64,000 nucleotides of DNA from Volutella citrinella (taxonomy: Eukaryota; Ascomycota; Sordariomycetes; Hypocreales; Nectriaceae): assembly GCA_034401135.1 (NCBI GenBank), contig JAWZSP010000002.1, forward strand, positions 5,612,740 to 5,676,739, given 5' to 3'. This document shows positions 13,508-47,165 of the stretch, one piece after another. How positions within the stretch are numbered: the first letter of the stretch is position 1; each line of letters begins with the position of its first letter. The position numbers and the translations under genes were made by a program. Under the pieces are notes generated by a model, which saw only the letters and a program-made list of their open reading frames with translations, made no database searches and had not been told where the DNA came from.

Positions 13508-16500
13508 TTACGCCGACTCTCGGCTCTGGCTGGCTATTAGTGTGGTTGCAAATGCCTTGGTGACGGAGTTGTTGTACGCGTCTTTCCAATGTGGTATGAG
13601 AGTAGCTGCGAGAGACTCCCATGCCTTCATTACCCCGTAAAAGGCGTCAGTACCAGGCACGCAAGTAGCCCCAGTAGGTAATTCTGGACCGAGAGCCTCG
13701 ATTGTGTCAACCATTAGTCCCTGAATGACGAGTGCACCATCGTCTCGGAACGCCAGCCCCGACAGAACCTCTTTTCTTAGGGTCTCGGCCGGAATACTCA
13801 ATTGCTGCCCATCAGGCTTCCGTAAGCTGCAATCATCAGGTCCCGAGCATAGGGGACTGGAGAGGGCTCGAGGCAGAATTCCAGCCTCACTCGTTTCACT
13901 GTAGTCCGGCACCCACGAAGCCAGGTCGTTCGATCCTGATCCAACACCAAAACATCTCAGAATCGACAAGTCTCGCATCTTCCGGATGACTGCCTCGGTA
14001 AACTGGCGGAATATCTGATGCACAGGCAACGCGTAATCGACCGGTATAAAGTTAACATCAAACAGGCCCAGCACACCGTATACCCGGTCCCTGATCTCGC
14101 TTGCTTGACACACGCGGCTGTAGCTCATGATGCTAACCGGATCACTTCCCTTTTTCAATACCCGGAGCCTCCAGACGTGTGCATCTGGATTGAAGCCGGA
14201 AAGAGATTGATCTCGGTCGTTGTACGGGGCACTATGCATGCTCGACAAGCCGCCAGCGCCAGAAATGTCACATCGCCACCCCCCCGAGTCCAAGTCCATC
14301 CACGGCGCCGAGTCCTCGCCGCACATGACTGTGGCAAAGCGGCTAAGGGCAACCTCCTGGATGACCCAGGTGCGAAAGAACCAGGGCCTGGTGATGAGGG
14401 CCTTCCAAGCGCGACGCAGCGGTGCTGGCGGTGAAGAATCGCTGGGACGCAGATCATCTTTGCTGGTGTCGCGGCCGAGATACGCAAAGACGAGGTGAGA
14501 GTCATTGGCAGCTTCGCCGAGCCAGACCACCACCTGGCGTGCGCACCTGTAAATGTCTCCCATGATGGTGACTTGCCGGTTCCGTTCTGCGGGCGAGGAC
14601 TGGTTGATGCAGAGGGCGTCGACCCAGAGCGTCCGCACCTGGGTGCTTTGACGAAGATGCACAAGCGCCGAGTGCAGATTTGGCGTGACGGATACAGGCT
14701 TTCCATCATTGTACACGTGCTTGCTGAGACTCGCGTCGCCCCAGACGTAGGATACGGCTTCGTAGTCCGGCTGGAGAGTGATGTCGCTGTTGATAAGGCG
14801 GATCGACAACGGTGCGGTCCTATCAGCCGAAGGGAGCACCTCGAGCAGGCGGAATGAGCTTTGACCCTCTAGTGGGCGGTATTCGAGCTCGTCGCGAGCG
14901 GTTGTCGGAGAAAACGGCTTGGTTGATGATGAGCCTGTGTCTTTGGACTGCGTGAATGGTATCTCTACTCTCCCGTCCACCAATTTCTTTACTCGTCGAT
15001 CCCACAGCCGCTTCTGCTCAGCAATCCCTTCGGCTTGCCGGGATCTGACCTCCGCGTAGGAGGGAAACGACCAGCTCTTGTCTGCGGATCGGCGGGTCTC
15101 CAACAGACTGATGACTTCCAGCCTCTGGTGGATATCCCAACTGAGAAACGATCTATTTTGCCGTATTGGCAGCCCAGCATCGACTGAGAGGCCTGGAAAC
15201 AAGGGATCGGCGCCCAACTCGAGTAGGAGACGGATGGCTTTCCGTTCATCCTTGTTTATGGCGACGTACAGCCAATTGGCCTGCGTCGGCTTCTCTTTCT
15301 GCCCGGGGCTCCGTAGCATCGCGACAAAGACTGCGTCAATGTGTGGGCCTGGGTACTCGGCGACCAGATACTGCAACATGTCCAGTTTGTTGTTGTGCAT
15401 CGCCGATAGAGCCACCTTGCCCCAGCCCTCTCGGTCTGAAGGCAGATGTGGGCCGTATTCCTCGACGCACCAGCGTAGTAGATGAAGCCGGTTCCTTCTC
15501 AGCGCCCTGTGCTGCAACTCTCGAGGGTCTAGAGTAGCCCCATGCCCAATGAGGAGTTGTGCCATTTCAACACTCATGATGTGAGGGGATACATCTCGTG
15601 GTTCAACTCCGCGTTCTAGAAGACGCTCTGCAAAGTCCAGACGGTTCTTGCTGGCACAACATTCCATGAGTTTCTGGTAGTCTGATTCTTCCAGCGATTG
15701 TGCTGAATTGATCAGTTCGCCCATGAAGGCAAGCATCGAATCGGTAGCGTCGTCTCCCCACCGGGGCCAGGCCATGGCGATCTCAATAGGGGTCACATCC
15801 TGGGGTGTCTTCGAACGCCCAAAGATGCATGTTCTGCGGCAAGTTGTACTTTCGCCGTGCTCTACCAGCATCTTGGTCACATCTAGTTGCAGGCCGGCAG
15901 CCGCAGCGTGTAGAGCCGTCCCGAAGGAGACACCCTTTCCGCGGCCTCCATCTGCCATTCTCGGGCTGGCGACACCAGTAGCGACTTGAAAGCGGACAAG
16001 TTGCTCAGCAACATCTAGCGCCCCTTGGTGGCAAGCAATGTGCAAAAACATAACGAGCCCTGGGTCGTCCGTGGCATAAGAGAAGCCTTGCTGTAACAGA
16101 TGAAGGATTAACCCGCCCCATGTGTTGTCGATCTCCAGCTCCCACATCGGCCCGTCGTAGTCTACTCCAGGGGGCCAGCCAACCCAAGTTGTGTCGACCA
16201 GACGTTGCGGAGAGATCAGGGCATCAAGGGTAATCTGCAGCAAATTGACTCTGTCGTCCCGCTCACTCTTCAAATCACTGGCATGGTCAGGCTGCTTCAT
16301 TGGGATTCCCCAGCGATGCTCAGTTGACATGTCCGCTCCAGCAGCGACAAGGCAGTGAAAGAGCTCCGGATATCCCAAGACGCAACCATAGACGAGAGGG
16401 GAGTTGCCGTCACCATCCAAGCAGCTAGCGGATGCCCCATGGTTGTTGATCAACAACTGCACCATCTCAAGGAGGTGAGCGCAGGATTCCCTAGGAGACT

Positions 16501-16867
16501 TTCCAAGTGCGTCTGGTTGAATCAAGGATGCTTTGATGGCCACGTGCAGCACATCGCTCTGGCCTGCAAATAAATCGTGGGCTTCATCTTTCTCCAGCAA
16601 AGCTCGTGCAAGGTCGATGTCGGGTCGCCAGCTATATGAGAGGCACTTGCTCACAGCCTCGGCGTGGTATCTCTTGAAGACTGGAGATGACTTGTACAGC
16701 TCGAAGAAGTCATCCGATTTGGCCTGCTCCAGCGACGTCCATGCCCGGGGATCGTGGTAGGCACGTTCTCTGGTGCACAAGCCAACGAGCCAATCTCCTG
16801 CCGCTTGGATAGCTTCTTCATCAGCAGAGGTTGTTTCTGGCATGCTTTCTAGCACGCATTTCTGCAT
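13508..16867 (-). CDS. Ankyrin-repeat heterokaryon-incompatibility (HET) domain protein, cut by in-frame stop
   Basis: Single long ORF, 1119 aa. Residues about 130-560 hold degenerate ankyrin repeats (for example DGNSPLVYGCVLGYPELF). A HET domain follows at about 665-850 with its three known blocks: YEAVSYVWGD (about residue 704), LWVDALCINQ (about 750) and WFFRTWVIQEV. HET proteins trigger cell death upon non-self recognition in fungi; ankyrin repeats would be the sensing or scaffold part. The ORF ends at a TAA (13508-13510), but the same frame stays open for another 139 codons with the conserved HET-protein C-terminus. Either the allele is truncated or the stop is bypassed. No in-frame intron that removes the stop was found. 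Confidence 0.85.
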   Translation of the reverse strand: MQKCVLESMPETTSADEEAIQAAGDWLVGLCTRERAYHDPRAWTSLEQAKSDDFFELYKSSPVFKRYHAEAVSKCLSYSWRPDIDLARALLEKDEAHDLFAGQSDVLHVAIKASLIQPDALGKSPRESCAHLLEMVQLLINNHGASASCLDGDGNSPLVYGCVLGYPELFHCLVAAGADMSTEHRWGIPMKQPDHASDLKSERDDRVNLLQITLDALISPQRLVDTTWVGWPPGVDYDGPMWELEIDNTWGGLILHLLQQGFSYATDDPGLVMFLHIACHQGALDVAEQLVRFQVATGVASPRMADGGRGKGVSFGTALHAAAAGLQLDVTKMLVEHGESTTCRRTCIFGRSKTPQDVTPIEIAMAWPRWGDDATDSMLAFMGELINSAQSLEESDYQKLMECCASKNRLDFAERLLERGVEPRDVSPHIMSVEMAQLLIGHGATLDPRELQHRALRRNRLHLLRWCVEEYGPHLPSDREGWGKVALSAMHNNKLDMLQYLVAEYPGPHIDAVFVAMLRSPGQKEKPTQANWLYVAINKDERKAIRLLLELGADPLFPGLSVDAGLPIRQNRSFLSWDIHQRLEVISLLETRRSADKSWSFPSYAEVRSRQAEGIAEQKRLWDRRVKKLVDGRVEIPFTQSKDTGSSSTKPFSPTTARDELEYRPLEGQSSFRLLEVLPSADRTAPLSIRLINSDITLQPDYEAVSYVWGDASLSKHVYNDGKPVSVTPNLHSALVHLRQSTQVRTLWVDALCINQSSPAERNRQVTIMGDIYRCARQVVVWLGEAANDSHLVFAYLGRDTSKDDLRPSDSSPPAPLRRAWKALITRPWFFRTWVIQEVALSRFATVMCGEDSAPWMDLDSGGWRCDISGAGGLSSMHSAPYNDRDQSLSGFNPDAHVWRLRVLKKGSDPVSIMSYSRVCQASEIRDRVYGVLGLFDVNFIPVDYALPVHQIFRQFTEAVIRKMRDLSILRCFGVGSGSNDLASWVPDYSETSEAGILPRALSSPLCSGPDDCSLRKPDGQQLSIPAETLRKEVLSGLAFRDDGALVIQGLMVDTIEALGPELPTGATCVPGTDAFYGVMKAWESLAATLIPHWKDAYNNSVTKAFATTLIASQSRESA

Positions 16868-32006: not shown

Positions 32007-34283
32007 ATTGAGGCAGCCGGGAATTAGGCTTTAAAAGGGTATTTTTCTAATTAACTAAAGCAGCTTACTAATTGCAGGAAGGTCTATAAGCAGCTAGAAG
32101 AGGCGTCGACTTTTTAAAGAGGGAGAGAGCAGAGATTAATATACTATATTACTAGGAGCTACCTTTTAGTTTACAGGGAATATATAGTTAAGTACTACCT
32201 TACTACTCTTTTAATATCTATTACTTTATATATTAATCTTTTTAAAACTATTAAGTATAAGAAGACTAATAAAGAGTACTATAACTAACTATAATACTTA
32301 AGAATTACAGACTTAGTATACTATTAGCAGAGATACTAAAAAGTAAATAGATATCTTAACTAAGTTCTTAAAGTTAGACCTCTTTTTATAATAAAAAGTA
32401 GTTAAGTAAAAGTAGAAAGATATCTAATTAATAAGGCTATAATACTATATTAAATATATAAAGCGAGGCTAGTAGTTAGATACTAAGTTAGTAGCTAAGT
32501 TTAAAAAAAATATTAAGAAGTATAAAAAGAAGGCAAAGTAACTAAGATTTAAGTAGTTATTAAAATACTTTATTAAATATTATAAAAAAGACTAGTTAGA
32601 GTTAATAACCTTTATTAATACTTTAAATATCTATTTTATTAATTACTTTTTATTTTTTAATATACTTAAGCTATAAACTAACTTAGTAAATACTAGCTTA
32701 TATATAGAGCCTTAATAATATTAAATTTATTACTTTAATAATAAAAGAATAAGAAAAACTAATACCTTATTAATATAGCTAGAGATAAAATAGTAGTTAA
32801 AAAATAATATAATAATATTAAAAGCTAGAATACTTAAAGTAATAAGAAAGCTAGCAGCTCTTTACTACTAATTAAGGATATTAATATAAGCCTACTTATA
32901 TAAATTTTAAGATATCTAAATATTATTTTTATAACTAGCTTAAGAACTATACTAAATTACTAAGCTATTAATCAGTCTTTTATTAAATTAGATAATATTA
33001 TTAATAAGCAGGGGATTACTTATAAACTAAGCTAAATTAAAATCTATTTTTAAAATATAAGATAATATTAACTTAGTAAAGATAGTATAGTTTAAATAAT
33101 AAGCAGGCCTTAAATAAGTAAATTAAAAGGTACTATAACTTAATATTATAAAGCTGCTTAATTAAATAGCTACTATCTTATACTTACTTAATTATTAAGC
33201 TACTTTTTTATTAAAAGCTAAGAATATATTAATAAGAGCTTATTTTAAGTATAAAAAGCTAGGGTATTATTATTCTAAGTATTTAAAAGTAAATTATAAG
33301 AAGTGTAAGAGTAATTAATATATTATAAATAGGTGCCTAAGAGTTAGTATACTAAATAATAAACTTATAATAATAAAGAAAAGGGCTATTTAATAAGAAG
33401 CTGAGCCTGTGTTAAGAGATAAAAAGGATAAAAATCTTAGCTTAATTTTTTTAATTATAGCTAATATTTAAATTAAAAAGTATTAGGAATAATAAAAAGT
33501 AAGAGTAATTTTTAATATAATAATTAAAATAGTCTTAATTATATAAACTTATACTAAAAGTACTAAGGGTTTATATTAGTAAAATAAATAAAGTAATATT
33601 ATTAAGTAATAACTAATATAAGTTACTATTATATTTAATAATAATTAAAAGTTATTAAATAATAGTAATTAAGATAATTAAGTTATATTAATAATTAAAA
33701 AGCTGCTTATATTAAATATATACTCTTTATAAATTTATATAGTTTATCCTAGTCTTTTATTATATAGCTTACTACTTATTTTTTATTTATTTTAGATTAC
33801 TAAGATTATAATAATAATTTAAGTAATCTATTTTTAATTAGTTTATTAAGTAAGGATTATAAAAATCACTTAGTAATTTTAATAATTTATTATTAATTAG
33901 CTATAGTTTATTTTTTAGGTTTTTTTATTTTATATATTTTATATAGGTATAATATATTAATATTAAGTTTTAATATAATGTTTTTTTTTAAAGTCTTAAT
34001 CTTAAGGCTAAATAAGTAACTTATATTAGTTTATTATATAAGTCTTATAAACTTAGACTTATAATTATTTTATACTAATTTATTATTATATTAAGTATAG
34101 CTTTTAAGTTTATTAAGACTTAGTAATATACTTTTTTTATTAATTATATTATTACTAAGAGTTTTATAATTAATATATTATATTTTTATTATTTTAAAAA
34201 TAAGTTAATATAATAATTTACTAAATATTTAAGTATAGAAACCCAGGTCAGGGTTAGGCCGACTTTAGGAAATCAAGGGGTAT
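32007..34283. mobile_element. RIP-bleached AT-rich repeat island
   Basis: About 2.2 kb made almost only of A/T with TAA, TAG and TTA everywhere and hardly any CpA, as RIP leaves behind. No ORF above 60 codons survives. Original element type not recognised. Its right end (from 34231) holds the start of the AGAAACCCAGGTC leader module found three more times downstream. Confidence 0.75.
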
Positions 34284-34285
34284 TT

Positions 34286-34619
34286 TGTTGGTGAGAATGA
34301 CAGGCCCAAACAAACACCAATAATTGTCAGTGTCCCCTGCAGAAACCTGCCGTAGGGTAACTGAACTTGGGCGAAAAGCGAAATTTTGCGTGACCTCCAG
34401 CAAGAGAACCTCGCAAGATAAACAAAATCTGAATTGACCAGCGATCTGATCAGACAGAAATGAAGGAGTCCCTGAACAGAAAAAGATTGAAAGAGGGGGA
34501 AAATTCTTGTTGATCTCAAGTACTGAGCGAACCTGCCCCTTTTAAGCTACTGACCCAAACGCCCAATTGACCAATCCAGCCCAACCACCAAAATGCCAAT
34601 GTGATCCAGCTGCCACACA
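34286..34619 (-). repeat. 3' LTR (element orientation)
   Basis: Begins TGTTGG and ends CACACA on the plus strand; same length and, by eye, same sequence as 46091-46424. Two further T bases upstream are shared by both copies. Confidence 0.93.
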
Positions 34620-34629
34620 CTCCTCCCCC
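34620..34629 (-). other. Polypurine tract
   Basis: GGGGGAGGAG on the minus strand, directly abutting the 3' LTR: the usual plus-strand primer position. Confidence 0.8.
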
Positions 34630-34698
34630 ATGGTCTGCATCATGTCCTCATGATCAGGCAGACCATGCCCCAAGCAAAGATATCCGAGCCAAGACTAA

Positions 34699-37200
34699 CT
34701 ACTGTCCACCAACATCCTCCATTTCCACATCCTCGTCTCCAGCGTCCTCCATGTCCTCGTCCTCGCCCGATCCCTGTTCCGCCACAACTTCCCGCAACAC
34801 CGGATTCGCCTTGATCAGGTTGCGGCTGCGATACCGCTCCGCCCGGCTGGGCTTGGGCTTTGCCTCTTGGGTCGCCCACGGTCGCGTCGCTTCGTGGAAG
34901 ATGAAGTCCCACTGACCAGGGTGAATCAGATTAGGCGGGACAAACGGCGCCCATGTGTATGTCGTAGTGCCAGGAACTGGGAACCCGTAGATGATTCGAT
35001 CCTCGACTGGGCACAGCGGTACCACTCCGTTCACAGCGCGCACCATCTCCTCAGCGGCCTGTCCAAGGGGCTGATCCTTCAGAGCCTCCTTGGTTGCCAG
35101 GGCGTCCTCTATGGTGCACGGCAACTTGAGTGCTCCGGCGATCTCGGGTGTGGAGGCGACGAGCTTCTTCAGAGGCACTTGGCCAGTCTCGGGGTCAATT
35201 CGCTGCCCATCTTCGTCCACCTCGACACGAGGTTCCCGTTTGACTCGGAAGCCTGGGCTCGACGCTCGTGATCCGGGTTGCGATGGCTCTGGTGTTGCCG
35301 TCAGTCTCTTCGGGGCTGGCGGTTGCGGCTGCCTGAAGAAGCTGTGGAAGGTGCTGTGCTTCATAACACCAGGCGGCGGAGGCTGATCCCACAGATCCGA
35401 CCCGGCTCGTGAGGGTGTTGAGCTACGCGACCTTCCTTCAGACCGATCGCGATCCTCCCCAACACCTGAGCGTGGTGTAGCTTGGCGCGTTCTGGTGCCA
35501 AACGTAGACACAGGCGGGGCCGGGGGCATGCCAGCAGCGGGCTCTCGACCAGCCGAGTCTGATCGCGACGGGGTTCGTCGATGGAAAGGGTTGGCCGGAA
35601 AGTAATGAGCGCTGGCTCGGTACCCGGGTGTAGGGCTGTCGGGCACATTCTCGACTGAGGGTTGAAGAGTCGCGATTGGCGGCTGGCTGTCGCCAAGAGG
35701 AGCTGGGGACTTCGCGGGAGGCGTTCCGATCAGATCAATAGAGCCCTGTCCGTCAGTGTTGAACTCCGATCGGGGCCTTTGCGGCACAGGGCCCTTCCAA
35801 GCAACGCCTCGGCTCTTCCACATGGCGAGTACCTCATCAGAAATCTTGGTGCGGACTCGAGCTTGCTGGTCAGCCGGCGGAGCGGAAGACCGCAGGAGAT
35901 TGGCACTGCTTGGATTCGGTCTGATCAGGTGGAGCGACGTCGGAGAGAAGGCATAGCGAAGCTTGTCAACCTTGAAGCAGAGGTGGCCGCCAAAGCTGGT
36001 AAAGAAGCGTTCGTCTCCATGGATCTCAGAAACGTCGATGAACTTGGTGACATGGCGCATGTAAGGGATCGAGTAAGGAATCTGCTCCTTGGTGATCTTC
36101 GGGAGTGTAAAGCCAAGATCCATAAGGGCCGCAGAGGTGAGCAGGGCGTAAACGATGTCGAGGCTCTCGTCGCGGTCGCCGGCAGCGTGATCGACAGTAG
36201 CCAGGACCCAGTCTCGAAGTCGGAATCGGAATGCAGGCTCGTGCTTCGGGCGGGTGCGATCAATCGTCAAGATAGCCTTCTTTGTGTGTTTGTCGAAATC
36301 CTCCGGGCCATAGCCTCGCAGGCCGCGTAGTGTCTGGAAGAGGCAAAAGACACTAAGGAATCCACACTCAAAGCCGTTGGGCTGATCGGATAGAGGTGGG
36401 ACAATCAGCTTGAAGTCGAAGGGCATTCCGAGAGAGGCAAGGGTCTCGCGCCAGACGTAGGCGAATTGGGCGGCATGAGGGCGGATCTGCTTTCTCATGG
36501 TGTCGAAGAAGTAAACGTGACCGACTACCCGATCGTACAGGAATGAACCCCAATGGGAACTGGCGAAGTTGACTAGACCAATGAAGAAAGGCTTGTCTCC
36601 CATGAGGTGGCGGACGCGGTCGGGGGCACCTAGGCCAGTGAAGGGGGTCTGCAAGGCTCGATTGGTACCGTGGGGGAGAAGCAAGTTGGAACCAGTTTCA
36701 CCGATCTTGGGGTTTGGGAAAGGCACGTTCCCCTCGATTCCAAGCACACCATCGCCGAAGGCCACTAGGTCTTCCATGCCGTACGAAACCATGCGAACGA
36801 AGGCCATCAGCTCAGTGTCCGATGCCCAGCCTTTGTCATTCATTTTGCCGATCGCGCTCCAGAGGCTACGGCAGTGCTCTGCCCAAACGTTGTCGGCGTG
36901 TTTGATCTCCTTAAAGTGGTCTCGCATAGGCACTTTGTCGAAGAGGGGGATGGCTAGTTTTGGGTCTGCGATCTCGAGGGTATTGTCAACAGGGTCCCAA
37001 GTCTCGCGAGGTTTGAAGAAGGCAGGTTGTCGGCGGTAGAGGTCAGTGAGGTTGCCAAACCGTTCCTCGACAGAGGTTCTTCCTGCCGGATCTTCTCCTT
37101 GAACCGAACCGAAGAGGAGCAGGGGATCGGTGCTTGCGCTGTAGCACCCTTGGGAGTTCTCCCACGCTGGGTTGACTTTCATGCCTCGGGTTCGCGACAT
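34699..37200 (-). CDS. Ulp1-like (C48-type) cysteine protease carried by the retrotransposon
   Basis: Intronless, 833 aa, same strand as gag-pol. Residues about 190-300 have the C48 layout: catalytic His216 in NFASSHWGSFLYD, Asp233 in VYFFDTM, and Gln273 with Cys279 in DQPNGFECGFLSVF. Ulp1 enzymes cleave SUMO or ubiquitin-like modifiers in the nucleus. The N-terminal part is unlike known domains. The region after about 480 is disordered, Pro/Ser/Arg-rich, and the end is acidic (EDEDMEDAGDEDVEMED). It sits where env lies in retroviruses and starts 332 bp from a divergent antisense gene. Inferred roles: desumoylation of host silencing factors or processing of element proteins. The triad is clear; substrate unknown. 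Confidence 0.82.
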   Translation of the reverse strand: MSRTRGMKVNPAWENSQGCYSASTDPLLLFGSVQGEDPAGRTSVEERFGNLTDLYRRQPAFFKPRETWDPVDNTLEIADPKLAIPLFDKVPMRDHFKEIKHADNVWAEHCRSLWSAIGKMNDKGWASDTELMAFVRMVSYGMEDLVAFGDGVLGIEGNVPFPNPKIGETGSNLLLPHGTNRALQTPFTGLGAPDRVRHLMGDKPFFIGLVNFASSHWGSFLYDRVVGHVYFFDTMRKQIRPHAAQFAYVWRETLASLGMPFDFKLIVPPLSDQPNGFECGFLSVFCLFQTLRGLRGYGPEDFDKHTKKAILTIDRTRPKHEPAFRFRLRDWVLATVDHAAGDRDESLDIVYALLTSAALMDLGFTLPKITKEQIPYSIPYMRHVTKFIDVSEIHGDERFFTSFGGHLCFKVDKLRYAFSPTSLHLIRPNPSSANLLRSSAPPADQQARVRTKISDEVLAMWKSRGVAWKGPVPQRPRSEFNTDGQGSIDLIGTPPAKSPAPLGDSQPPIATLQPSVENVPDSPTPGYRASAHYFPANPFHRRTPSRSDSAGREPAAGMPPAPPVSTFGTRTRQATPRSGVGEDRDRSEGRSRSSTPSRAGSDLWDQPPPPGVMKHSTFHSFFRQPQPPAPKRLTATPEPSQPGSRASSPGFRVKREPRVEVDEDGQRIDPETGQVPLKKLVASTPEIAGALKLPCTIEDALATKEALKDQPLGQAAEEMVRAVNGVVPLCPVEDRIIYGFPVPGTTTYTWAPFVPPNLIHPGQWDFIFHEATRPWATQEAKPKPSRAERYRSRNLIKANPVLREVVAEQGSGEDEDMEDAGDEDVEMEDVGGQ

Positions 37201-37532
37201 TTCGTCAGGCTTGGTGTAGCGGGTTCAAGGGCTCGATGATGGGTCTGATCAGGCAGAATGATGATGAAAATGAGGGAGAAAGAGAGGCAGTCTGTGTGCG
37301 TTGAGGAGTTGAAATGTTTGTTGCTGGAGAGGTGGTTTGCTTCTTCGCGCCGGGAAGAGAGCCGTCCTTTGAGCAGACTTATTGCCGTGATTCACTGCCA
37401 CTAGCCGCGCACCTGCCAGATCCGGCTCTTTGTCATTCATGCCTTTACCCTCTCTGCCCTTTCTCTGCTCTTCTCTTCTCTTTTTCCCTTCATCATCAAC
37501 TTCATCTTTGTTGTCGCGACGGCTTTGTCACG
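37201..37532. promoter_or_regulatory. Internal bidirectional promoter candidate of the retrotransposon
   Basis: 332 bp between the divergent starts of the Ulp1-like gene (minus) and the Cys-rich gene (plus). The right half is CT-rich (37441-37500), as in fungal core promoters. Inferred from arrangement. Confidence 0.45.
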
Positions 37533-38563
37533 ATGTCTTCGAACCGCAGCTCAGAGGCGCCCGAGGCTCCCCCTCGCCCGCGTATTGTTGTTGATCCTTA
37601 TGCCCTTGAAGAATTGCGTACCAAAGAGCGCAAAGATTTGCCGAACATCATCAAAGCTGTGAAGCCAGGGCTGCACGCTAAAGATTTCCGACCGACTCAT
37701 CGCCTTAACACTCGAGGCAATCGAACAGAGTTCATGACCGCCAAGGATACCGGCTTCAACAGCGCCAGCAATGTAATGCCCTTGTCTGATCATCCTGACC
37801 TTGTTGTGGCTAACCATTTTTCCTTTGGCAGACTTTCAGTTTCTTCGACGTGTGGATCTGCTCCCGCCTTGGCCTCGATCGCGCTGGTCAACCGATGTTT
37901 TGTCGTCTCGCTTTCCGAGGAGCTGACGACGAGGAGGTTCTCGAAAGCGCCTCTGGGTTCTGGCAGACCTCTATTGGCGACTCGTCCGACCTCCGTCATG
38001 CCGTTCGATACACCGCGAAGACTCTCCCGAATCCCGTCTACATCCCCGCCGAGTACGCCCATCCGAAGGGGTACTTCTTCGCTCAACTGAATGCCCGCCC
38101 AAATCACGTCAAGGCGCTCTTCATCGCGTGTTTCGGTCAGATCAACCCGCTGACTTGTCGCCACTGTGCCTCGACTTTCATGACGACTGTCACATCCTTC
38201 GGCGACCACATACTCTGGCCATTTCACGCTTGCATGTCGATTGCCGACTTCCACGGGGGTTCTTGCGCTAATTGCGTCTGGCGCGAGTGCCCTGATTGCA
38301 GCTGGTCCTTTATGCCTGGCTACCTCCCCACTCGCCGAGACGAAGGCCCTCTGCTTTATCCTCTGCGTGGTCGGGACACAATTCGTGAGGATGGTCATAA
38401 CCGCTACTATGAGGTCGATCCCATGAACCCTTCGAGTTGCCCTGAGATCACTTGTAATCTTCCCGCACTTGAGCCGATCCCTGAGGAGGATATGCAAGCG
38501 CGGCTTGAAACCGCTAGGGAGCGTTCTTGGGATGATTATATGACTGGGTTCCGCCATCTGTAA
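37533..38563 (+). CDS. Cys-rich DUF3716-like protein, antisense gene inside the retrotransposon
   Basis: Two exons, 37533-37772 and 37832-38563, coding for 323 aa. The 59-bp intron has GTAATG, GGCTAACC and GGCAG, and joining keeps frame. Start MSSNRSSE follows TCACGATG. The C-terminal half holds a zinc-binding-like array: CRHC (189-192), Cys214, CANC (225-228), Cys233 and Cys236, with GGSCANCVW, the pattern I know from fungal DUF3716 proteins. No signal peptide. It lies opposite to gag-pol and Ulp1, so its intron would not be spliced from the element's genomic RNA and can survive retrotransposition. Role unknown; a nucleic-acid- or protein-binding factor is plausible. Family name is from pattern memory. 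Confidence 0.75.
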
Positions 38564-39191
38564 GGGCTCTAGCAGTGGGACTGTTGCTTTTGGGTTGCTG
38601 GACATGGGATTTTCTTTGGGTTGGAGCTGGTTTGCTGTGTCCGATCGGGCCCATCCGCTTTTGTTCTTTGCGTCTGTCTTCATTCTGGGTCTTCAGGTTG
38701 CTTAAGTAGTGAGCGTCTTCGCTCTAAGAATGGAAAATTTTCTTCCCGGCACTCTGTGGTCTCCAGGCGTCGTTTCCTTTGTGCCCGTTCTGATCGTTCC
38801 AATATGTGTCTTCGCTGTGCGTCACATCTTGTCTAACTGATCGTCTTGGACTGTCGAGTTCCGCGCCTGAGCGTGTCTCACAGCGTCCTGGCTGGGGTCG
38901 GCTCGTGTCTTGGACAGTCTTGGGGCGTGTCCGGCGCTGTCGAGCCGCTTGTCTTAACGTGTCGCCGACAGTGTCCTCTGGTCGATCTGGCTTGTCTCGT
39001 CTCGTCCCAGCGGTTGTGGCCAGTTGTCGTCGTGTGTCAAAATTTTTCTGGGTAGGTCACCCAAGTCTTTTGGTGTGTGTTTTGGTCGCGTCTTGCCATC
39101 ACACCCATCCTCCCCGGTCAGCCACCACAGCTCCCGCACGCGTGAGCTGGCCTGTTCCTGTCTGATCGGGCAGAATCCTCCCCATCTCCGC
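38564..39191. other. Gap between antisense gene and pol end
   Basis: 628 bp, rich in G/T with many GTGTC and CTTGTCT words. It would hold both 3' ends (convergent Cys-rich gene and gag-pol). No ORF or structure recognised. Confidence 0.5.
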
Positions 39192-42100
39192 TTAGAGTTT
39201 GGAGTATTGGTCTCGCGCCGCTTTTGGCATCGTCGGCAGTTGGACCTCTACCCTATAACCAGGGCCTTTTCTTGGAGGAGGCATCCTTTCTTCCTCATCC
39301 ACAACCCCAGACTCGTCACTAAATGACGAGTCGCTTGCATCCGACTCATCATCACTGGATTCTAGAAGGCTTCCTTCCTCTTCCGAGAGGCTGTCGCTTT
39401 CTTTGTCCTGGTTTGTTTCGAGATTTGCAAGTTCTTCCTCGAGATTAAACCACCAGCCACTCTCATCTTGGATAAACTTCTTCAAATGTTCTCCATGGGT
39501 CGTGGTGGCCAGTTTGATCCCGTCAAGTGTTTCCAGCTGGTAGCTTGGCGATCCCTGGCTGTGCCTGTGTATTCTGAAGGGGCCCTGCCAGCGCGGTCGC
39601 ATTTTGGCCTCTGTCGACATGTCCTGGGATCTTGGCACATCGTACTTCAGCACTAGGTCTCCTTCCACCAACGGTTCTTTCCTGAGTGAGTGCAAATTGG
39701 TCTTGTCGGTCCGATCAGCCAGTTTCCTCCTAAATGCTGTTGCTTTTCGGATGGCTTCATTAACATCCTCCTCTTTCCTCTGGAGGACCTTGATCCTTCG
39801 CAGCAGCAAATCTTCAGAGCTCCTGACCTCATCCCAATTCACAGTCCTCCAGGTAGGGATCTTGACTTCGATCGGTAGTCTAGGTTCCCATCCATGAAGC
39901 AGGTAGAAGGCTGATCGTCCGTGGGATGCTCTGATCGCGGATCTGTCGGCTAAGAGGACTTCCTCCAGCTGGTCAACCCAGCACCCACCCAGCTTCTTGA
40001 GCGCATTTGTCAGGATGGAGTGCCCTCCTTCCACAATGCCATTAGCCTTCGGGTTATAGGCTGACGTCCAGATCACCCTGATCCCATAGTCCTCAAGTAC
40101 TCGCTTGAAGTCCTTCTTCGTTTCCTTCCCATTGTCGACAACTGCCTCTTGAGGCATGCCATACCTAAATATGACACGCTTGACGAAGGCCTTGAACGTT
40201 TTCACTGTGACTTTGCTCACGGCTTCGGCCTCAATCCACCCCATCAGATCACATCGTCCCTCGTAAAGGAACTTCTTTCCTTTTCGTGGAGGCATGTACT
40301 GGGCGTCGAAGTGGATCTTCTCCATTGGCCTCCCTGGCGTCGAAAAGCCGGCCTTTTCCCTTGGTCGCCTGGGATCATGCTCTTGGCATGTCGCACAGGC
40401 TGTCACTAATGAATATGCGTCTGATCGCATCGACTTCCAGTAGTACCTCCCTGCTGCTGAGTTGAAGGTCGCCTCTCGTCCTTTGTGCCCATTTTCAGTA
40501 TGGCAACATCGCAGGATCTCCCTCTGAGTCCCCCCGTCGTCAACCACTAGGACTGGGTCCGCATAAAGCCCGCCTGGCCTCTTCCATAAGTAACGCTTCT
40601 TTACCATGAACTTCGGGGCATTCCGCCTTATCTTGCGGTAGGCTTCAGGTGAAATTCCGGCGGGTCTTTCCAGCGTTTGAAGGTACCTCCCCATCACCTG
40701 GCATTCAGCTCCATAGCTCTGGTCCAGCTCCTTACTGTCGTCATCCAGGGTGATCGTATTAAGGTGAAGGTCGATAAACTGGTCCATGTCTCCTTCGACG
40801 TCCTGATCCATCTGGTCAGATGGACCGGGCTCCTTTCGGGACAGCCCGTCAGCCGCGCCATTCTTCTTTCCTGGGACATGCTTTGCAGTGAAGTCGAAAA
40901 GCATGATATAGCTTAGCCATCGGTTGATCAGGGCCCCGGGGACATCGTCTGCTCGCCCGTTCAACTGGTGAACCAGGACCTGGGAATCCGTTTCCAGGGT
41001 AAAAGGGACTCCATAGAGGTAGCCTCTCAGTCTCCGAAAGGCATGCAGAACTCCTTTGCATTCGCGCTTTGTCGCATCGTACCCTTGTTCTGCAGTCGTC
41101 CATACTCCTGATTCGTATCGAGCTGGCTTGCGCTTACCGTCCACAACTTGTAGGATCAGGGCTCCCCATCCACGAAGGCTGGCATCTACCATGAGTATAA
41201 TTTCACCGGCTCCTTCGCTGTAATCCAGCGTGATCAGGATGGGGGCAGTGACCAATCTCTCTTTGAGGACCTTCATAGCATCTTCCTGCTCAGGGCCCCA
41301 AACCCATTCGGCATCCTTCTTCAAGAGCTTAGTGAGAGGTATCGCGATCCAGGCGTAGCCCATCACCCAGATCCGGAAGAACCCTGTGACTCCTAGGAAT
41401 CCTCGTACTTGTGTAATGTCTTCGCAGGCTTTCCACTCCAGGATCTTGATGATCTTTTCCTCAGAGGGTTTCCGCCCGTTGTTGCCACACAGGTATCCCA
41501 CCAGAATTGCTGTTTCCTGACAGAACTGGGATTTTGCTGCTGAGATCGTGCAGCCAGAGAGCTCCACATTAAGAAGGGCCTTGTCCAGGTTGACCAGATG
41601 CTCCATGACGTATCGCCTTACGCCAGGAAGGCTCTCCTCCCCGCCGTAGTCAGTCGCTGGACCTCTAACTGCAATGTCGTCAAGGTAGGCCCGGCATACG
41701 TCAGGGATCAGATCAAACAGAATCCTGGTCATAATCCTTGAGAACTGAGCTACCGAGTTGGTGGCTCCCTGTGGGAGTCGACACACCCGCAGTAGCCCCA
41801 GAGGTGTCATGAACGACGTCATATCCCGGCTCTTCTCATCCAAGGGGACCTGATCATAACCGGAAAAGAAATCCAGGACGCTGGTGATCTTGCATTGCGC
41901 AAAGTCGGCTGAGAATTCATCGGTATTAGGCGGACTCATGGCGTCTTTGATCGTAAACGCATTGTACTTCGTCGCCGAATTGATCAGTCGCAGGCCGCCG
42001 TCTTTCTTCTGAACCAGGAACCAAGGGTTGCGGTACGACCCATGACTTTCCTCCAGGACCCCTCGTTCCAGTCGGGCCCTCAAGAGGTCGATCACTTTAT

Positions 42101-45100
42101 TAGCCATGCCCTTCGGGATCGGTATAGTACCAGCCTGGAACGCCCGGTGAGGGATCACTTTGATCGTCTGTGGCGGCGCGACCAGAGGGTCCAGCAATCC
42201 GCTCTCTGTAAAGTCCCAGGCTAGGGCCGCCTCACGGTTGTACAGCACCTCTGTTAGAACTTCCCGTTCTTGCCGGGTAAGGGTGCCGTCGACTTGATCA
42301 AGCAGATTCTTGAGTCTCTCTGCTGTCAGCCGGGTGCCCTTCTCGATTTTGGAGAACTTTGGTGTTAGCCCTGGGTACTTGGGTGGACCCTGGAAGTTCT
42401 TCTGGGCCTCAGCCAACTTCTTCTCCTTCCACTGCGGGTCTCCTTCGGGGGTTGAGCCATCAGGTGGCACGTCCTCCAGAGGTCTGATCTTATCGGCTTT
42501 GCGCTTGTACATCGTGTTGGCTTTGATGTCTTCGCCCGGTTGCTCTGCGCAGGTCCTCTTCTGGTCGCTGAACATCTGCGTCTGCTCGTCCATAGCAGCT
42601 TGCACCATCGTTCGATAACAGCCCCAGATCTCCTTCTTGATCAGTTTGACAATCTCGCAGGCCGTATCCTGTCCGATCTTTCTCAAAGTGCTGCGATCAT
42701 CGTCTCCTTCGAGGGTGACTTTCTCCTCCCCGCTCGGATCCAGAGTGCAGGCGTTCGTCTTTGGGTTCTGCTGGCAGTCCTCTCTCCCAAAACGCGGCTG
42801 GTCGTATCGTATGTTGCCGGCTGCTGCCGTCACGACTCTGATCTCTCCGAGTTGGCATCGGATGAGTAGGTTCCCATCGCGAGACGTGTGATCGAACGAG
42901 ACCTTACATGTTCGGATGAAGGGCATTCCTAGCAAAAGGGGCACACTGACCCCGTCCGGGACGACGTACATCCTCTGCTCCACCCACACATTCCCTAAGT
43001 AGAGTTTTGTTAGACACTCACCTACCATCTTGACCTTTTCCCCGTTATAGGCCGTGGTTGTGGCCTTAGCGTACCCGACCTTCAGACCGGAAGCCTTGGC
43101 CACTGATTCAGAGATCAGGTTCCCTTCTGCCCCGGTGTCCACCAGCCCTTCGATAGCTGGTCCGTCTGCTCGATCAAGCCGAACTCTGATTCGTGGTAAC
43201 TCTTGGCAGTGGGAGATCAATCTCGCGCTTACTGCGCTTTCCAGGTTGATTGAGACTTGATGGGTTCGCAGCTCCTCACGCCACTCCGACTTGTCCGTCA
43301 TCGACTGGCCGAGCAGATCTGCGATCTGGTTGTCCGGAGCGATCTTGACGTTGTTGACCTTGCATTTCTCCTTCATGGCTTCAAAGTAGGCGTCTGAGAA
43401 GTTTTGCGGTTGGGCTTCCTCCATTACAGCATAAGCCGCCATGCGGGTTTGATCGCGGCCAGCCCCTATGCTAGATACTGGCTCGATGTACTGGGTGTTC
43501 GTTACTTCGTCAACGACCTCCCCAATGTCTCGGTGAAATCCCTCTGCAAATTGAGGGTCGAGCTTCATGATGTCCTTTAAGGAGACGTTCATCTTCCGAT
43601 TAGCGGCTTCAGCGCGCAGTCTCTGCCTGATCCGATCTTTGCTGTCATCAGGGGTGGTCCTAGGATTCGTGTTCCTGTCGTCGCTGGGTTGGCGGCCGGA
43701 CTGCGAGCGCTTCATCGAGGCGTCCTCTTGGGGATCATCCCGTTGGTCTTGAGGATGTTGATGGGAACCGATCGCCTTCCCATCGTTACTCCTCAGGCGC
43801 TTATTGGCCGCATTGTTGACTCGAATGCCCTTCTCCGCCACATCAGGGCCCGGGCCGTCTTCATCCACTGTGAGGAAATTGGTCCTTGTCTGGCTAGAAA
43901 ACGTCCCTTGGGCTAACCGATCGTTCCGATCAGGGTGAAGCTGAATCCGGGGGTTGAGTCGGGAGCCCTCATTCTTCTTCATGAATCTCTCGAAGAGGTC
44001 CTTCTCCTCGGGTGTCTCAACATACCCCCCAGGCGGCTTCCAGAAATGTGTAAGGGTCTCCCCGAGACTCCATGCCTCGGTACCCGGGAAACGGTTCGAC
44101 CACAGGACCATTCCTCGTCTGATCCCGCCCGCGCTGTGGCGGAAGATTCCGACCAGGAATGGGGGCACAAAGTACTCACCAAGCCAGACAGCCCCCGCGC
44201 TTGGTTCATAATGGGTAATATGCTCCTTCTTACTGTCCTTTCGCAGCTTCAGGCAATCTCTCAGAGCATGATCCTCATCGCCGCAGTAATAACACCGATA
44301 CTGCTTGAACTCGCCTGCTACCATTGTCGCGATGTCTTGGTCGTTCCTCTCGATGATCCTCTCAATTGTCTGGCAGTCGTGGATTTCCTCAACAGCGGCC
44401 GTGTTCGTCTGGATATTCCGGATCCGCGCACCTTGTTGCAAGACGCGTCTTTTCTCGCGGGTCCCCTCTTGGTCCTTAAGGACTGCGACCTGGATGCTCA
44501 GCTCCTCGATCTGACGGGTCAGATCGGCTAGCGCTGACTCGGCGCCGCTCGCTTCCTCATTCCTGTGCTGGAAACTGACCCTTTTGTCCTTCGGGAGCGA
44601 GTGCCGGGCTCTGTCTGGCTGGTCGGCGGGGTCGCCTACCTTGCTTCGCGACGCGCCACCCCCTTCAGAGTCACTGTTCCACTCTGATCGGCCCGATCTC
44701 TCAGTGATCCCTTCAACCTGGAGGATCGTGTTGATGCTGTCCGACACCGTTTTGTAGGGCTTCTCTAGGATGGTGTCTGGGGTGCAGCTGAGTTGCCTGC
44801 ACAGTTCCTTCTTCCATTGGTCAGGGAGCCCTTTATATAAGGTGTAAGCGAAGGTCGTGTTGGTTGCCCAATCATTTGGGTAAACCGCCTTGATCAGGTA
44901 GGCGTGCTTGTCCATCCACCTTCTCATGCCTTGGACATCCCCCAGTTTGATGTCGGGGTTTGCCATGTTCATGAGTTGGTGAATCGGTGCTCCATCCAGC
45001 TCATCATCATAGCTCTTGAACCGTTTGATCAGCATGCTCTTGGCTTCTTCCCAAGAGCAGCCTTCCACAGTTCTCCTTACTTGCTTCATCAAGGATCTTC

Positions 45101-45794
45101 CGGTGACCCTTAAATCCACGTCCTCCTTCATCTGGCTCTCAGAGAATCCTTGAGCCCTCATGTGATCCTCGTAACGTTTAAGGAAGAAGGTGATCCCATC
45201 CCCATCAAAGTAATATTGATCAGGGAAGGGACGGTACTCGCTGCTCGCTGGGTGATCCATCTTGGAGCTAAACAGCGGAGTGGTTACTGCTTCTTCGTAG
45301 TCTGGAGGGGTCGCAGATGTGAACGGTTTTCCCGTGCAAGATGCCTTGCTAAGAGGTTGAACAGTCTGATCAATTCCGTGGGATTCCCCGAGGGTTGAAA
45401 GAATATCTGGTGACTGAATAGGCTCAGTATGAGAAGTTGTATGAGAAGTCCCTTCTGCTGGAAGGTCCGCAGCAGGCATGTGCTTGGTTGCTTCGTGCTT
45501 TCTCTTGCGTGTCATGGTGATGATTCCATCCCATGGGATCTGTTCGAATATAAGTGCGTAAGCCAGTAGCAGCAGAACTGTCGTCAAGCTGACTCTTGCA
45601 GCCACGCAGATTACCACTAATCTGGTTATCGCGGTGAGTTTTCCAATCGGTATGGAGACCGTGATCGGGAATTCGACCTTCGGCTCAAAACATAGCGTGT
45701 CCATTCCATAATTGGCCTGATCGGGCCGAATCTCGGGGCAGGATTTGTTATGTCTTTGCCCTGGCCAGGCGACTGGCGATGCTTTGTCTCGCAT
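39192..45794 (-). CDS. Ty3/Gypsy gag-pol polyprotein
   Basis: One unbroken ORF of 2200 aa. Domains in order: gag-like capsid segment (YYFDGDGITFFLKRYEDHM, about residue 190), CCHC knuckle CYYCGDEDHALRDC (about 500), protease DTGAEG (about 885), reverse transcriptase with LPQGATNS and YLDD (about 1369), RNase H MVDAS and ETDSQ (from about 1534), integrase HHCC (CATC near 1790) and DDE core (FDAQYM, VVDNGKE, GIVEGGH, about 1830-1922), then RWQGPF, a GPF module, and an acidic tail. Gag and pol are fused in one frame. The first 93 residues include a strongly hydrophobic run; Met94 (45515) may be the true start. All catalytic residues look intact. Confidence 0.95.
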   Translation of the reverse strand: MRDKASPVAWPGQRHNKSCPEIRPDQANYGMDTLCFEPKVEFPITVSIPIGKLTAITRLVVICVAARVSLTTVLLLLAYALIFEQIPWDGIITMTRKRKHEATKHMPAADLPAEGTSHTTSHTEPIQSPDILSTLGESHGIDQTVQPLSKASCTGKPFTSATPPDYEEAVTTPLFSSKMDHPASSEYRPFPDQYYFDGDGITFFLKRYEDHMRAQGFSESQMKEDVDLRVTGRSLMKQVRRTVEGCSWEEAKSMLIKRFKSYDDELDGAPIHQLMNMANPDIKLGDVQGMRRWMDKHAYLIKAVYPNDWATNTTFAYTLYKGLPDQWKKELCRQLSCTPDTILEKPYKTVSDSINTILQVEGITERSGRSEWNSDSEGGGASRSKVGDPADQPDRARHSLPKDKRVSFQHRNEEASGAESALADLTRQIEELSIQVAVLKDQEGTREKRRVLQQGARIRNIQTNTAAVEEIHDCQTIERIIERNDQDIATMVAGEFKQYRCYYCGDEDHALRDCLKLRKDSKKEHITHYEPSAGAVWLGEYFVPPFLVGIFRHSAGGIRRGMVLWSNRFPGTEAWSLGETLTHFWKPPGGYVETPEEKDLFERFMKKNEGSRLNPRIQLHPDRNDRLAQGTFSSQTRTNFLTVDEDGPGPDVAEKGIRVNNAANKRLRSNDGKAIGSHQHPQDQRDDPQEDASMKRSQSGRQPSDDRNTNPRTTPDDSKDRIRQRLRAEAANRKMNVSLKDIMKLDPQFAEGFHRDIGEVVDEVTNTQYIEPVSSIGAGRDQTRMAAYAVMEEAQPQNFSDAYFEAMKEKCKVNNVKIAPDNQIADLLGQSMTDKSEWREELRTHQVSINLESAVSARLISHCQELPRIRVRLDRADGPAIEGLVDTGAEGNLISESVAKASGLKVGYAKATTTAYNGEKVKMVGECLTKLYLGNVWVEQRMYVVPDGVSVPLLLGMPFIRTCKVSFDHTSRDGNLLIRCQLGEIRVVTAAAGNIRYDQPRFGREDCQQNPKTNACTLDPSGEEKVTLEGDDDRSTLRKIGQDTACEIVKLIKKEIWGCYRTMVQAAMDEQTQMFSDQKRTCAEQPGEDIKANTMYKRKADKIRPLEDVPPDGSTPEGDPQWKEKKLAEAQKNFQGPPKYPGLTPKFSKIEKGTRLTAERLKNLLDQVDGTLTRQEREVLTEVLYNREAALAWDFTESGLLDPLVAPPQTIKVIPHRAFQAGTIPIPKGMANKVIDLLRARLERGVLEESHGSYRNPWFLVQKKDGGLRLINSATKYNAFTIKDAMSPPNTDEFSADFAQCKITSVLDFFSGYDQVPLDEKSRDMTSFMTPLGLLRVCRLPQGATNSVAQFSRIMTRILFDLIPDVCRAYLDDIAVRGPATDYGGEESLPGVRRYVMEHLVNLDKALLNVELSGCTISAAKSQFCQETAILVGYLCGNNGRKPSEEKIIKILEWKACEDITQVRGFLGVTGFFRIWVMGYAWIAIPLTKLLKKDAEWVWGPEQEDAMKVLKERLVTAPILITLDYSEGAGEIILMVDASLRGWGALILQVVDGKRKPARYESGVWTTAEQGYDATKRECKGVLHAFRRLRGYLYGVPFTLETDSQVLVHQLNGRADDVPGALINRWLSYIMLFDFTAKHVPGKKNGAADGLSRKEPGPSDQMDQDVEGDMDQFIDLHLNTITLDDDSKELDQSYGAECQVMGRYLQTLERPAGISPEAYRKIRRNAPKFMVKKRYLWKRPGGLYADPVLVVDDGGTQREILRCCHTENGHKGREATFNSAAGRYYWKSMRSDAYSLVTACATCQEHDPRRPREKAGFSTPGRPMEKIHFDAQYMPPRKGKKFLYEGRCDLMGWIEAEAVSKVTVKTFKAFVKRVIFRYGMPQEAVVDNGKETKKDFKRVLEDYGIRVIWTSAYNPKANGIVEGGHSILTNALKKLGGCWVDQLEEVLLADRSAIRASHGRSAFYLLHGWEPRLPIEVKIPTWRTVNWDEVRSSEDLLLRRIKVLQRKEEDVNEAIRKATAFRRKLADRTDKTNLHSLRKEPLVEGDLVLKYDVPRSQDMSTEAKMRPRWQGPFRIHRHSQGSPSYQLETLDGIKLATTTHGEHLKKFIQDESGWWFNLEEELANLETNQDKESDSLSEEEGSLLESSDDESDASDSSFSDESGVVDEEERMPPPRKGPGYRVEVQLPTMPKAARDQYSKL

Positions 45795-46073
45795 CTCGGG
45801 TCGTCTTCCGCTCCCTTCTCAGGTCCGCCGATTGAAGTGTCCACCCAATTGGAATGATGATTCGGCTTCGATCATGAAGAATCCTCCATCCGATCTTTGC
45901 TCGTAGTTGAATCGTTTTTCGGGGTTCGCGCGACCGCCCACTCTTGGAGCAGTCGCCTCGCTTTCCGACTTCGAATCAGGGATTGCAGGTTCTGGTGCAG
46001 CGTAGAAGTGCTCCTCTGGTCGAGCCGTCTGATCATTCAGATCTCTGGCCTCTGACAAAGGAATACCCCCCCC

Positions 46074-46086
46074 ACCGTGACCTCCA
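46074..46086 (-). other. Primer-binding-site candidate
   Basis: TGGAGGTCACGGT on the minus strand, four bases after the 5' LTR. It begins with TGG, complementary to a tRNA CCA end. Which tRNA is not determined. Confidence 0.55.
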
Positions 46087-46090
46087 AATT

Positions 46091-46424
46091 TGTTGGTGAG
46101 AATGACAGGCCCAAACAAACACCAATAATTGTCAGTGTCCCCTGCAGAAACCTGCCGTAGGGTAACTGAACTTGGGCGAAAAGCGAAATTTTGCGTGACC
46201 TCCAGCAAGAGAACCTCGCAAGATAAACAAAATCTGAATTGACCAGCGATCTGATCAGACAGAAATGAAGGAGTCCCTGAACAGAAAAAGATTGAAAGAG
46301 GGGGAAAATTCTTGTTGATCTCAAGTACTGAGCGAACCTGCCCCTTTTAAGCTACTGACCCAAACGCCCAATTGACCAATCCAGCCCAACCACCAAAATG
46401 CCAATGTGATCCAGCTGCCACACA
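46091..46424 (-). repeat. 5' LTR (element orientation)
   Basis: Partner of 34286-34619. Read on the minus strand it begins TGTGTGGC and ends CCAACA. Followed by GTAT, the target duplication. Confidence 0.93.
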
Positions 46425-46838
46425 GTATACTTTTTTTAAAAAACAGAAAATAAACCTTATAATAATTTAAATTGATTTATTTCTTAATTTCTACCTCTTC
46501 CCTTTTTTTTATATCTATTTTTACTAATTAATTATTAAATTTTAAAAATTATAAGAGATTAATAAGTCTTATATAAAAACATTATTAGCTTTAAGACTAA
46601 GCTAGTAGGTCTTATATAAAAATCACTATTAGCTTTATAACTAAGTTAGTAAGTTTTATATAAAAATTACTATTAGCTCTAAGACTAGGCTAGTAGTCTT
46701 ATATAATAATAACTTAACTTAAGTATATTTAAATAATATAAAATAAATAAAGCTTTTTAATAAAGACTTATTATTATACTAGCTTATATTATAATCCCTT
46801 CTATACCTAAGTGCTAAAGTAGACTAAAATTAGATTTA
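46425..46838 (+). repeat. RIPed leader module copy 1 (right part, split by the retrotransposon)
   Basis: Continues the module begun at 34231-34283. It aligns to the un-RIPed leader at about 51525-51935, with ATGCCGGCTCACGCT changed to ATACTAGCTTATATT, so the start codon of the AT-hook gene is destroyed (ATG to ATA). The copy ends shortly after the AT-hook codons. Confidence 0.8.
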
Positions 46839-47165
46839 AGTACAGAAACCCAGGTCGGGGTTAGGCCGACCTTAGGAAATCGAGGGGTACACTTTTTTTT
46901 AAAAAACAGAAAATAAACCTTATAGTAATTTAAAACGATTTATTTCTTAAGTTCTACCTCTTCCCTTTTCTTTATATCTATTTTTATTAATTAGTTATTA
47001 AGTTTTAACTATAGACTTTAAGTTAGGGGATTAATATAAAACCCTAATTAGGACTAATATTAATACAAAACCTTAATCAGGACTAGCACTTAACGCAAAA
47101 CCCTCTTAAATAGATTTATTATTTAAACTACTTTATAATATTATTCTCTATTATTTACAGTGTTT
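46839..47165 (+). repeat. Leader module copy 2, truncated
   Basis: Starts AAGTACAGAAACCCAGGTC and runs about 330 bp through the T-run and the AAATAGAAAATAAACC block, then diverges and abuts copy 3 head-to-tail. Partly RIPed; no coding capacity. Confidence 0.75.

Follow-up and report, generated by a model that had tools for sequence, protein, structure and literature searches.

A Ty3/Gypsy retrotransposon family of Volutella citrinella with an Ulp1-like gene and an antisense DUF3716-like gene between pol and the 3′ LTR

How do retrotransposons multiply in fungi despite the defences set against them, repeat-induced point mutation (RIP) and heterochromatin? One element in a 64,000-nucleotide stretch of the Volutella citrinella genome (assembly GCA_034401135.1, contig JAWZSP010000002.1, positions 5,612,740 to 5,676,739; hereafter the window) bears on this question. 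At positions 34284-46424, the minus strand of the window holds a complete Ty3/Gypsy retrotransposon that carries two additional genes between pol and its 3′ long terminal repeat (LTR), the position of env: one that we read as encoding a remote relative of the Ulp1 protease, and one with a borderline match to DUF3716. Both genes are present in all seven intact copies of the element in this genome; among six decayed gag-pol loci, the Ulp1-like gene occurs at five and both genes at four. An original prediction, made from the letters of the window, had proposed a distinct lineage with its own accessory module, recognizable by several copies with the same order of LTR, gag-pol and accessory genes. 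Within this one genome that proposal is supported, and the opposite outcome, in which all other copies lack the accessory genes, was not seen in the genome copy search. We tentatively take the pair to be a stable two-gene module in the env position of a recently amplified family, serving as an aid against silencing rather than as an envelope, a reading that we hold with slightly less than even confidence.

The LTRs, primer binding site, polypurine tract, GTAT duplication and intact 2,200-residue gag-pol of the original prediction were all confirmed, with exact coordinates. Its two accessory genes are also where it placed them, but the picture needed amending: the element reads along the minus strand; the DUF3716-like gene runs opposite to gag-pol, contains a predicted intron and has a borderline match to DUF3716; and the assignment of its neighbour to Ulp1 is remote. 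The order along the element is 5′ LTR, primer binding site, gag-pol, DUF3716-like gene (reversed), Ulp1-like gene, polypurine tract and 3′ LTR, with 628 bp between gag-pol and the DUF3716-like gene. The features, in window coordinates, are as follows.

46425..46428, no strand: target-site duplication GTAT, 5′ side, read directly
46089..46424, minus: 5′ LTR, 336 bp, termini TG...AAA, identical to 34284-34619
46069..46086, minus: 18-nt primer binding site that pairs with the 3′ end of tRNA-Arg(ACG) and its CCA
39192..45794, minus: gag-pol, single frame of 2,200 aa, identified by domain matches; protein 100% identical in seven copies
37533..38563, plus: DUF3716-like gene, two exons, 323 aa, three CxxC pairs, antisense to gag-pol
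37773..37831, plus: predicted 59-bp intron of the DUF3716-like gene (GTAATG...GCTAAC...GGCAG)
37201..37532, no strand: 332-bp spacer from which the two accessory genes diverge, rich in pyrimidines ahead of both starts; putative two-way promoter
34699..37200, minus: Ulp1/C48-like protease gene, 833 aa, sense with gag-pol; assigned by the alignment of H216, D233, Q273 and C279
34620..34629, minus: polypurine tract GGGGGAGGAG, abutting the 3′ LTR
34284..34619, minus: 3′ LTR, 336 bp, identical to the 5′ LTR over all 336 bp
34280..34283, no strand: target-site duplication GTAT, 3′ side, read directly

Are the two genes part of the element or a one-off capture? A genome search with gag-pol gave 23 matches, from 21 of 49 candidates scored; among them are seven intact 2,200-residue copies, six decayed loci of the same family and three matches at 26-30% identity, which we take to be other Gypsy families. 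Across all seven intact copies, the gag-pol protein, the Ulp1-like protein and exon 2 of the DUF3716-like gene are 100% identical. At the DNA level, comparison of the six other intact copies with the window over 5,917 bp gave no substitution or one per copy, and over a second stretch, of 5,824 bp, four of the six are free of substitutions. In the C1 and C7 copies, a run of G next to the primer binding site is off by 1 bp in length, with gag-pol proteins still identical. Matching 4-bp duplications flank six of the seven (GTAT twice, CTAC, TTAG, ATAT and GCAC), and the copy at C2:4547604-4559744 lacks one (TTAG/ATAC), as after recombination between copies. That a nested insertion or an assembly error merely mimics element cargo is next to impossible: it could draw on nothing but that one copy of seven (C2:4.55 Mb) without a matching duplication, and it is refuted by the same structure at seven loci, with five different duplication sequences, as well as by the decayed copies. 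A search with the LTR returned 31 matches, 14 within the seven full copies and 17 outside them, and the two outside matches that were inspected are solo LTRs with duplications of their own (L008, GTAA; L005, ACAC, matching at 335 of 336 positions). All seven intact copies stem from a single recent burst, and independent evidence therefore has to come from the decayed copies.

These are six stop-ridden gag-pol loci, at C3:520-535k, C11:195-202k, C9:2394-2401k, C9:1758-1761k, C4:1946k and C7:3585k. At four of them (C3, C11, C9:2394k and C4), both accessory genes keep the order and orientation that they have in the intact element, and pol end, DUF3716-like and Ulp1-like sequence stand directly side by side, in the order pol-DUF-Ulp, in three decayed loci. 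The Ulp1-like gene at C9:1758k probably belongs to that locus as well, at 9 kb from gag versus 5.8 kb in the intact element; no DUF3716-like gene was detected there. Accessory sequence in decayed form also occurs at four more loci (C7:4238k, C3:1492k, C5:1357k and C11:204k), where no gag-pol match was scored. Two observations weigh against cargo as a constant property of the family: no cargo was detected with the gag fragment at C7:3585k, and cargo-free copies may have been missed because 21 of the 49 gag-pol candidates were scored. With cargo present in decayed copies, the accessory genes predate the current burst.

The manner of decay ties the cargo to the element. In the copy at C3:537k, the Ulp1-like gene has 672 C>T/G>A differences, 0 in the reverse direction and 1 transversion, and the corresponding counts are 198, 0 and 0 in exon 2 of the DUF3716-like gene and 222, 0 and 0 in the pol end; differences of such near purity mean that the same element was hit by RIP, cargo included. 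The Ulp1-like gene at C9:1748k shows the same pattern (1,112, 1 and 3), and the TpA/ApT ratio is 1.29-1.62 in eight decayed Ulp1-like loci with their flanks versus 0.48 in the element. Wherever measured, then, the decay is RIP-like. Four of the six Ulp1-like sequences examined (C11:190k, C7:4239k, C9:2412k and C4:1941k) also carry 45-62 transversions, some of them perhaps due to misalignment. Sixteen non-RIP differences are common to the sequences at C11:190k, C7:4239k and C9:2412k, pointing to an older subfamily that already carried the Ulp1-like gene.

Did the older copies carry a working gene? Among the sites of the Ulp1-like gene that differ in at least two copies alike, 22 of 55 are silent versus 20% expected from the codons (an expectation calculated from codons outside the linker only; binomial P about 0.0005), and outside the linker, residues 481-689, the count is 11 of 28 (P 0.015). 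We take this excess as a weak hint of protein-level selection on the Ulp1-like gene. Counting against it, the test mixes changes from before and after the death of a copy, the sites are non-independent, 2 of the 55 shared sites read as stops, and the clusters of differences in the linker may reflect misalignment.

What is the larger of the two proteins? It has no Pfam match. Among 177,635 sequences of solved structures, the best match of the whole protein is yeast Ulp1 (E 0.045), and a 137-residue piece, picked after the first match had been seen, matches yeast Ulp1 at E 0.0032. H216, D233, Q273 and C279 align with the active site of yeast Ulp1 (1EUV), whose H-D-Q-C set we take to be its catalytic residues, and the spacings are identical in the two proteins, 17 between H and D and 6 between Q and C. 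The third solved-structure match of the piece is SENP8, another Ulp1-family protease (E 0.95), and NCBIfam yields a single match, to a model of Ulp1-family isopeptidases (E 0.0047 with the piece and 0.096 with the whole protein), in both cases far below the cut-off of the model. We therefore read the protein as a probable remote protease of the C48 type. This assignment has evidence against it: a search of the genome with PF02902 left the protein unmatched even at E ≤ 10, the second solved-structure match of the piece is an unrelated glycosyl-hydrolase-type protein (E 0.031), and structure prediction without relatives gave residues 85-345 a predicted local distance difference test score (pLDDT) of 35. 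A database search with thin fungal coverage found no relative of the protein at E ≤ 0.001 among 6,709 candidates. Likewise, no relatives appeared among viral contigs (Ulp1-like protein, gag-pol and gag-pol alignment), bacterial and archaeal genome contigs or plasmids.

The match of the smaller protein to DUF3716 (PF12511) is borderline, at 20.6 bits versus a curated cut-off of 22; in the genome search it scored 21.8 bits, or 23.6 with neighbours in frame. No relative was found at E ≤ 0.001 among 511 candidates, again with thin fungal coverage. Because the search with gag-pol reached named fungal proteins, the database does hold some fungi, and the negatives for both accessory proteins carry some weight, though little. 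The predicted intron has a GT donor, a GCTAAC branch-like site and a CAG acceptor, and its removal gives the 323-residue frame. Its sequence is exact in the window copy and six other intact copies, and with its flanks it matches at 99 of 99 positions in two decayed copies when C>T/G>A changes are allowed. An intron in a sense gene would vanish when spliced genomic RNA is copied; since the DUF3716-like gene is antisense, its intron would be invisible to the splicing of genomic RNA and would survive each round. The gene illustrates how the cargo of a retroelement can hold on to an intron. A minus-strand frame of 297 aa at 38683..37790 was rejected as a gene, as it has no domain and lies antisense over the DUF3716-like gene.

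The place of the two genes raises the idea that they are envelope-like and that the element is an infectious agent of the errantivirus kind. Position between pol and the 3′ LTR is all that speaks for it, and we consider it very improbable: neither protein has a 19-residue hydropathy window over 1.6 and hence no membrane segment, one gene is antisense, and the other aligns with a protease.

Where might such a pair have come from? In the host genome, DUF3716 exceeds its cut-off at four other loci, and of the nine C48 matches at E ≤ 10, five score above the C48 cut-off. At one single-copy locus, C4:4788800-4792300 (L070), C48-like, DUF3716 (40 bits) and SIR2 (41 bits) genes follow one another on one strand; C48 similarity is weak at this locus (E 0.198 in the genome; 16.6 bits versus a cut-off of 20.7), and an Ulp1-type glutamine and cysteine-glycine can be seen by eye in the next exon. 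The chance expectation for an adjacent C48/DUF3716 pair is about 0.0026, calculated after the pair was seen, and the locus suggests a link between the C48 and DUF3716 families outside the element. It also lends some substance to the idea that the accessory genes are passengers, taken up once from a host locus where C48 and DUF3716 genes adjoined, and hitchhiking since without benefit. We regard that as unlikely. The host genes share a strand, whereas those of the element diverge, and the host C48 match is itself weak. The Ulp1-like protein of the element has no detectable similarity to the host C48-like exon (best E 1.7), which leaves recent capture from that locus unsupported. Moreover, frames of 833 and 323 residues stayed open until the burst, and the older differences show the silent-site excess described above.

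What, then, could the module do for the element? In yeast, Ty1 RNA rises when SUMO conjugation is lowered (ubc9, siz1 siz2), and restraint of Ty1 by the Nup84 complex works through tethering of Ulp1 (PMC8585004). An element-made enzyme that removes SUMO could by the same logic lift the repression of its own element. We envision that genomic RNA would start in the 5′ LTR, be primed by tRNA-Arg(ACG) and be copied by gag-pol, while the accessory genes would be transcribed divergently from their own 332-bp spacer. Host factors that repress transcription of the element would then be stripped of SUMO, or of a modifier related to it, by the Ulp1-like protein, which the cysteine-rich DUF3716-like partner might direct or assist. 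The two-way promoter in the spacer is inferred, and neither a TATA box nor CCAAT occurs in it. One finding cuts against this scheme: yeast ulp1 mutants also show raised Ty1 RNA (PMC8585004), so the sign of an added Ulp1 effect is not simple. A protease-like gene and a second gene that have outlasted at least one earlier cycle in which copies decayed and the family was renewed provide a concrete candidate for counter-defence.

A role in replication is the alternative that we give most weight, although we think it appreciably less probable than counter-silencing. Gag, integrase or the particle could be the target of the Ulp1-like protein, as an additional protease or a de-conjugase, and the cysteine-rich partner could be an accessory factor that binds nucleic acid, in the manner of retroviral regulatory proteins. 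The sense orientation of the Ulp1-like gene, which makes it translatable from an LTR-primed or internal transcript, fits this idea, as do the three CxxC pairs of the DUF3716-like protein and the proposal that antisense extra genes of plant elements regulate transposition (PMC7264820, PMC11963269). However, gag-pol already encodes an aspartyl protease, and divergence from a spacer of their own suggests that the two genes are expressed separately.

A further observation bears on how counter-silencing might be directed. GATC is the most over-represented 4-mer in the element interior, with 138 sites in the element, or 11.4 per kb versus 3.0 per kb elsewhere in the window, where part of the DNA is AT-rich. 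When synonymous codons are shuffled, TGATC remains in excess in gag-pol (62 observed versus 28.4 ± 4.2) and in the Ulp1-like gene (15 versus 6.9 ± 2.3), with no such excess in the DUF3716-like gene (3 versus 2.1 ± 1.2) or in three host frames. Orientation is in part biased: GATCAGAC has 10 sense and 2 antisense occurrences and CGATCAG 10 and 3, whereas the counts are 13 for CTGATCA and 8 for TGATCAG. An excess beyond codon shuffles suggests that a DNA- or RNA-level motif is maintained across coding sequence; GATC/GATCAGAC might serve for binding or for packaging, or have some other role.

This layout recalls the plant VANDAL transposons and their anti-silencing VANC proteins, in which an extra gene is likewise accompanied by a dense array of short motifs that in part favour one orientation; by the same comparison of motif layout, VANC21 motifs are mainly non-coding and often in tandem repeats, whereas GATC/GATCAGAC runs through coding DNA (PMC5735166). 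By this analogy, a SUMO-type protease and a cysteine-rich partner that recognizes GATC/GATCAGAC motifs might form a sequence-directed counter-silencing system convergent with VANDAL/VANC, which we offer as a speculative idea and consider doubtful. If true, it would be a fungal and LTR-retrotransposon case of a VANC-like system, letting an element multiply in a genome that mutates and silences repeats.

How new is such cargo? Boty/BcGypsy1 of Botrytis cinerea carries a gene named brtn in antisense (Zhao et al. 2011, cited by PMC8365987, PMC7264820 and PMC4227169). It resembles the element described here in being a Gypsy element of a fungus whose extra gene sits between pol and the 3′ LTR and runs opposite to gag-pol, and B. 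cinerea LTR elements are RIP-affected too (PMC8365987). In Boty-like elements, however, gag-pol includes a CHROMO domain and solo LTRs are flanked by 5-bp duplications (PMC4227169), whereas here no such domain was matched and duplications are of 4 bp; the covered parts of the Boty accounts (PMC8365987, PMC7264820 and PMC4227169) mention no sense Ulp1-like gene. Antisense extra genes are frequent in plant elements, and Retand, Grande and RIRE2 share with ours a long region between pol and the 3′ LTR and antisense genes kept in most copies, but their proteins have other domains, such as TRP28 (PMC7264820, PMC11963269), and the sense open reading frames of Retand encode no known domains, according to the Retand paper. 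The word Ulp1 is absent from the main text of both plant papers (PMC7264820 and PMC11963269) and from that of a survey of fungal LTR elements (PMC3248453). Ginger1, Mutator-like elements and oomycete Cryptons are likewise mobile elements that encode an Ulp1/C48 protease (PMC2836005, PMC3212892), but they are DNA transposons or tyrosine-recombinase elements, whereas here a separate gene sits in an LTR retrotransposon. Among the literature matches listed (titles and abstract openings, with subscription papers mostly uncovered), no report of a Gypsy element with an Ulp1-like gene or of an Ulp1/DUF3716 pair was found, nor, with the same coverage, any mention of DUF3716. An antisense extra gene in a fungal Gypsy element is thus already known; an Ulp1-like gene in a Gypsy element is without a report that we found.

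The remainder of the element is conventional for Ty3/Gypsy (Metaviridae): gag-pol has its domains in the order aspartyl protease, RT, RNase H and integrase (H2C2 and rve), accompanied by an LTR pair, a tRNA primer site, a polypurine tract and a short duplication. A zinc knuckle match is weak (E 0.13), and no match to a chromodomain (PF00385), the mark of the chromovirus clade, was found in gag-pol at E ≤ 1. At E ≤ 0.001, 332 of 5,054 candidates are gag-pol relatives, the best with 59% identity over residues 1180-2120, and those with names include proteins of Ophiocordyceps, Colletotrichum and Penicillium. Together with the RIP-like decay and the genes of fungal type in the window, these relatives point to an ascomycete host. 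A strongly hydrophobic segment lies at gag-pol residues 59-77 (45564-45620), and a similar one can be seen by eye in a related protein, P0008.

The primer binding site begins two bases in from the 5′ LTR. Six of seven pattern matches from the genome have the exact tRNA 3′ sequence, and ARAGORN called all three of the matching tRNAs that were fetched tRNA-Arg(ACG); the acceptor stem contains a G-U pair, and patterns that demanded a perfect stem gave no match. Eleven nucleotides of the site (TGGAGGTCACG) recur inside the LTR, at sense positions 221-231. LTRs usually have the termini TG...CA, and those here end TG...AAA instead.

Where the copies sit may also reflect RIP. Of the 14 near flanks of the seven intact copies, 11 are under 0.40 GC (read over 86-204 nt, or 1,500 nt for the window), and the C11 copy has a GC content of 0.27 to the left and 0.50 to the right over 1.5 kb. 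AT-rich flanks may mean insertion into RIP-affected DNA, despite the lack of a chromodomain match, and we claim no targeting. Beside the 5′ LTR in the window, AT-rich DNA contains a 115-nt direct repeat (46431-46545 and 46894-47008, 93% identical). Fungal_trans_2 and HET domains are found among the genes of the window, which include a HET-domain protein with ankyrin repeats at 13508-16867 on the minus strand and an alpha-amylase gene at 6411-8249 on the plus strand.

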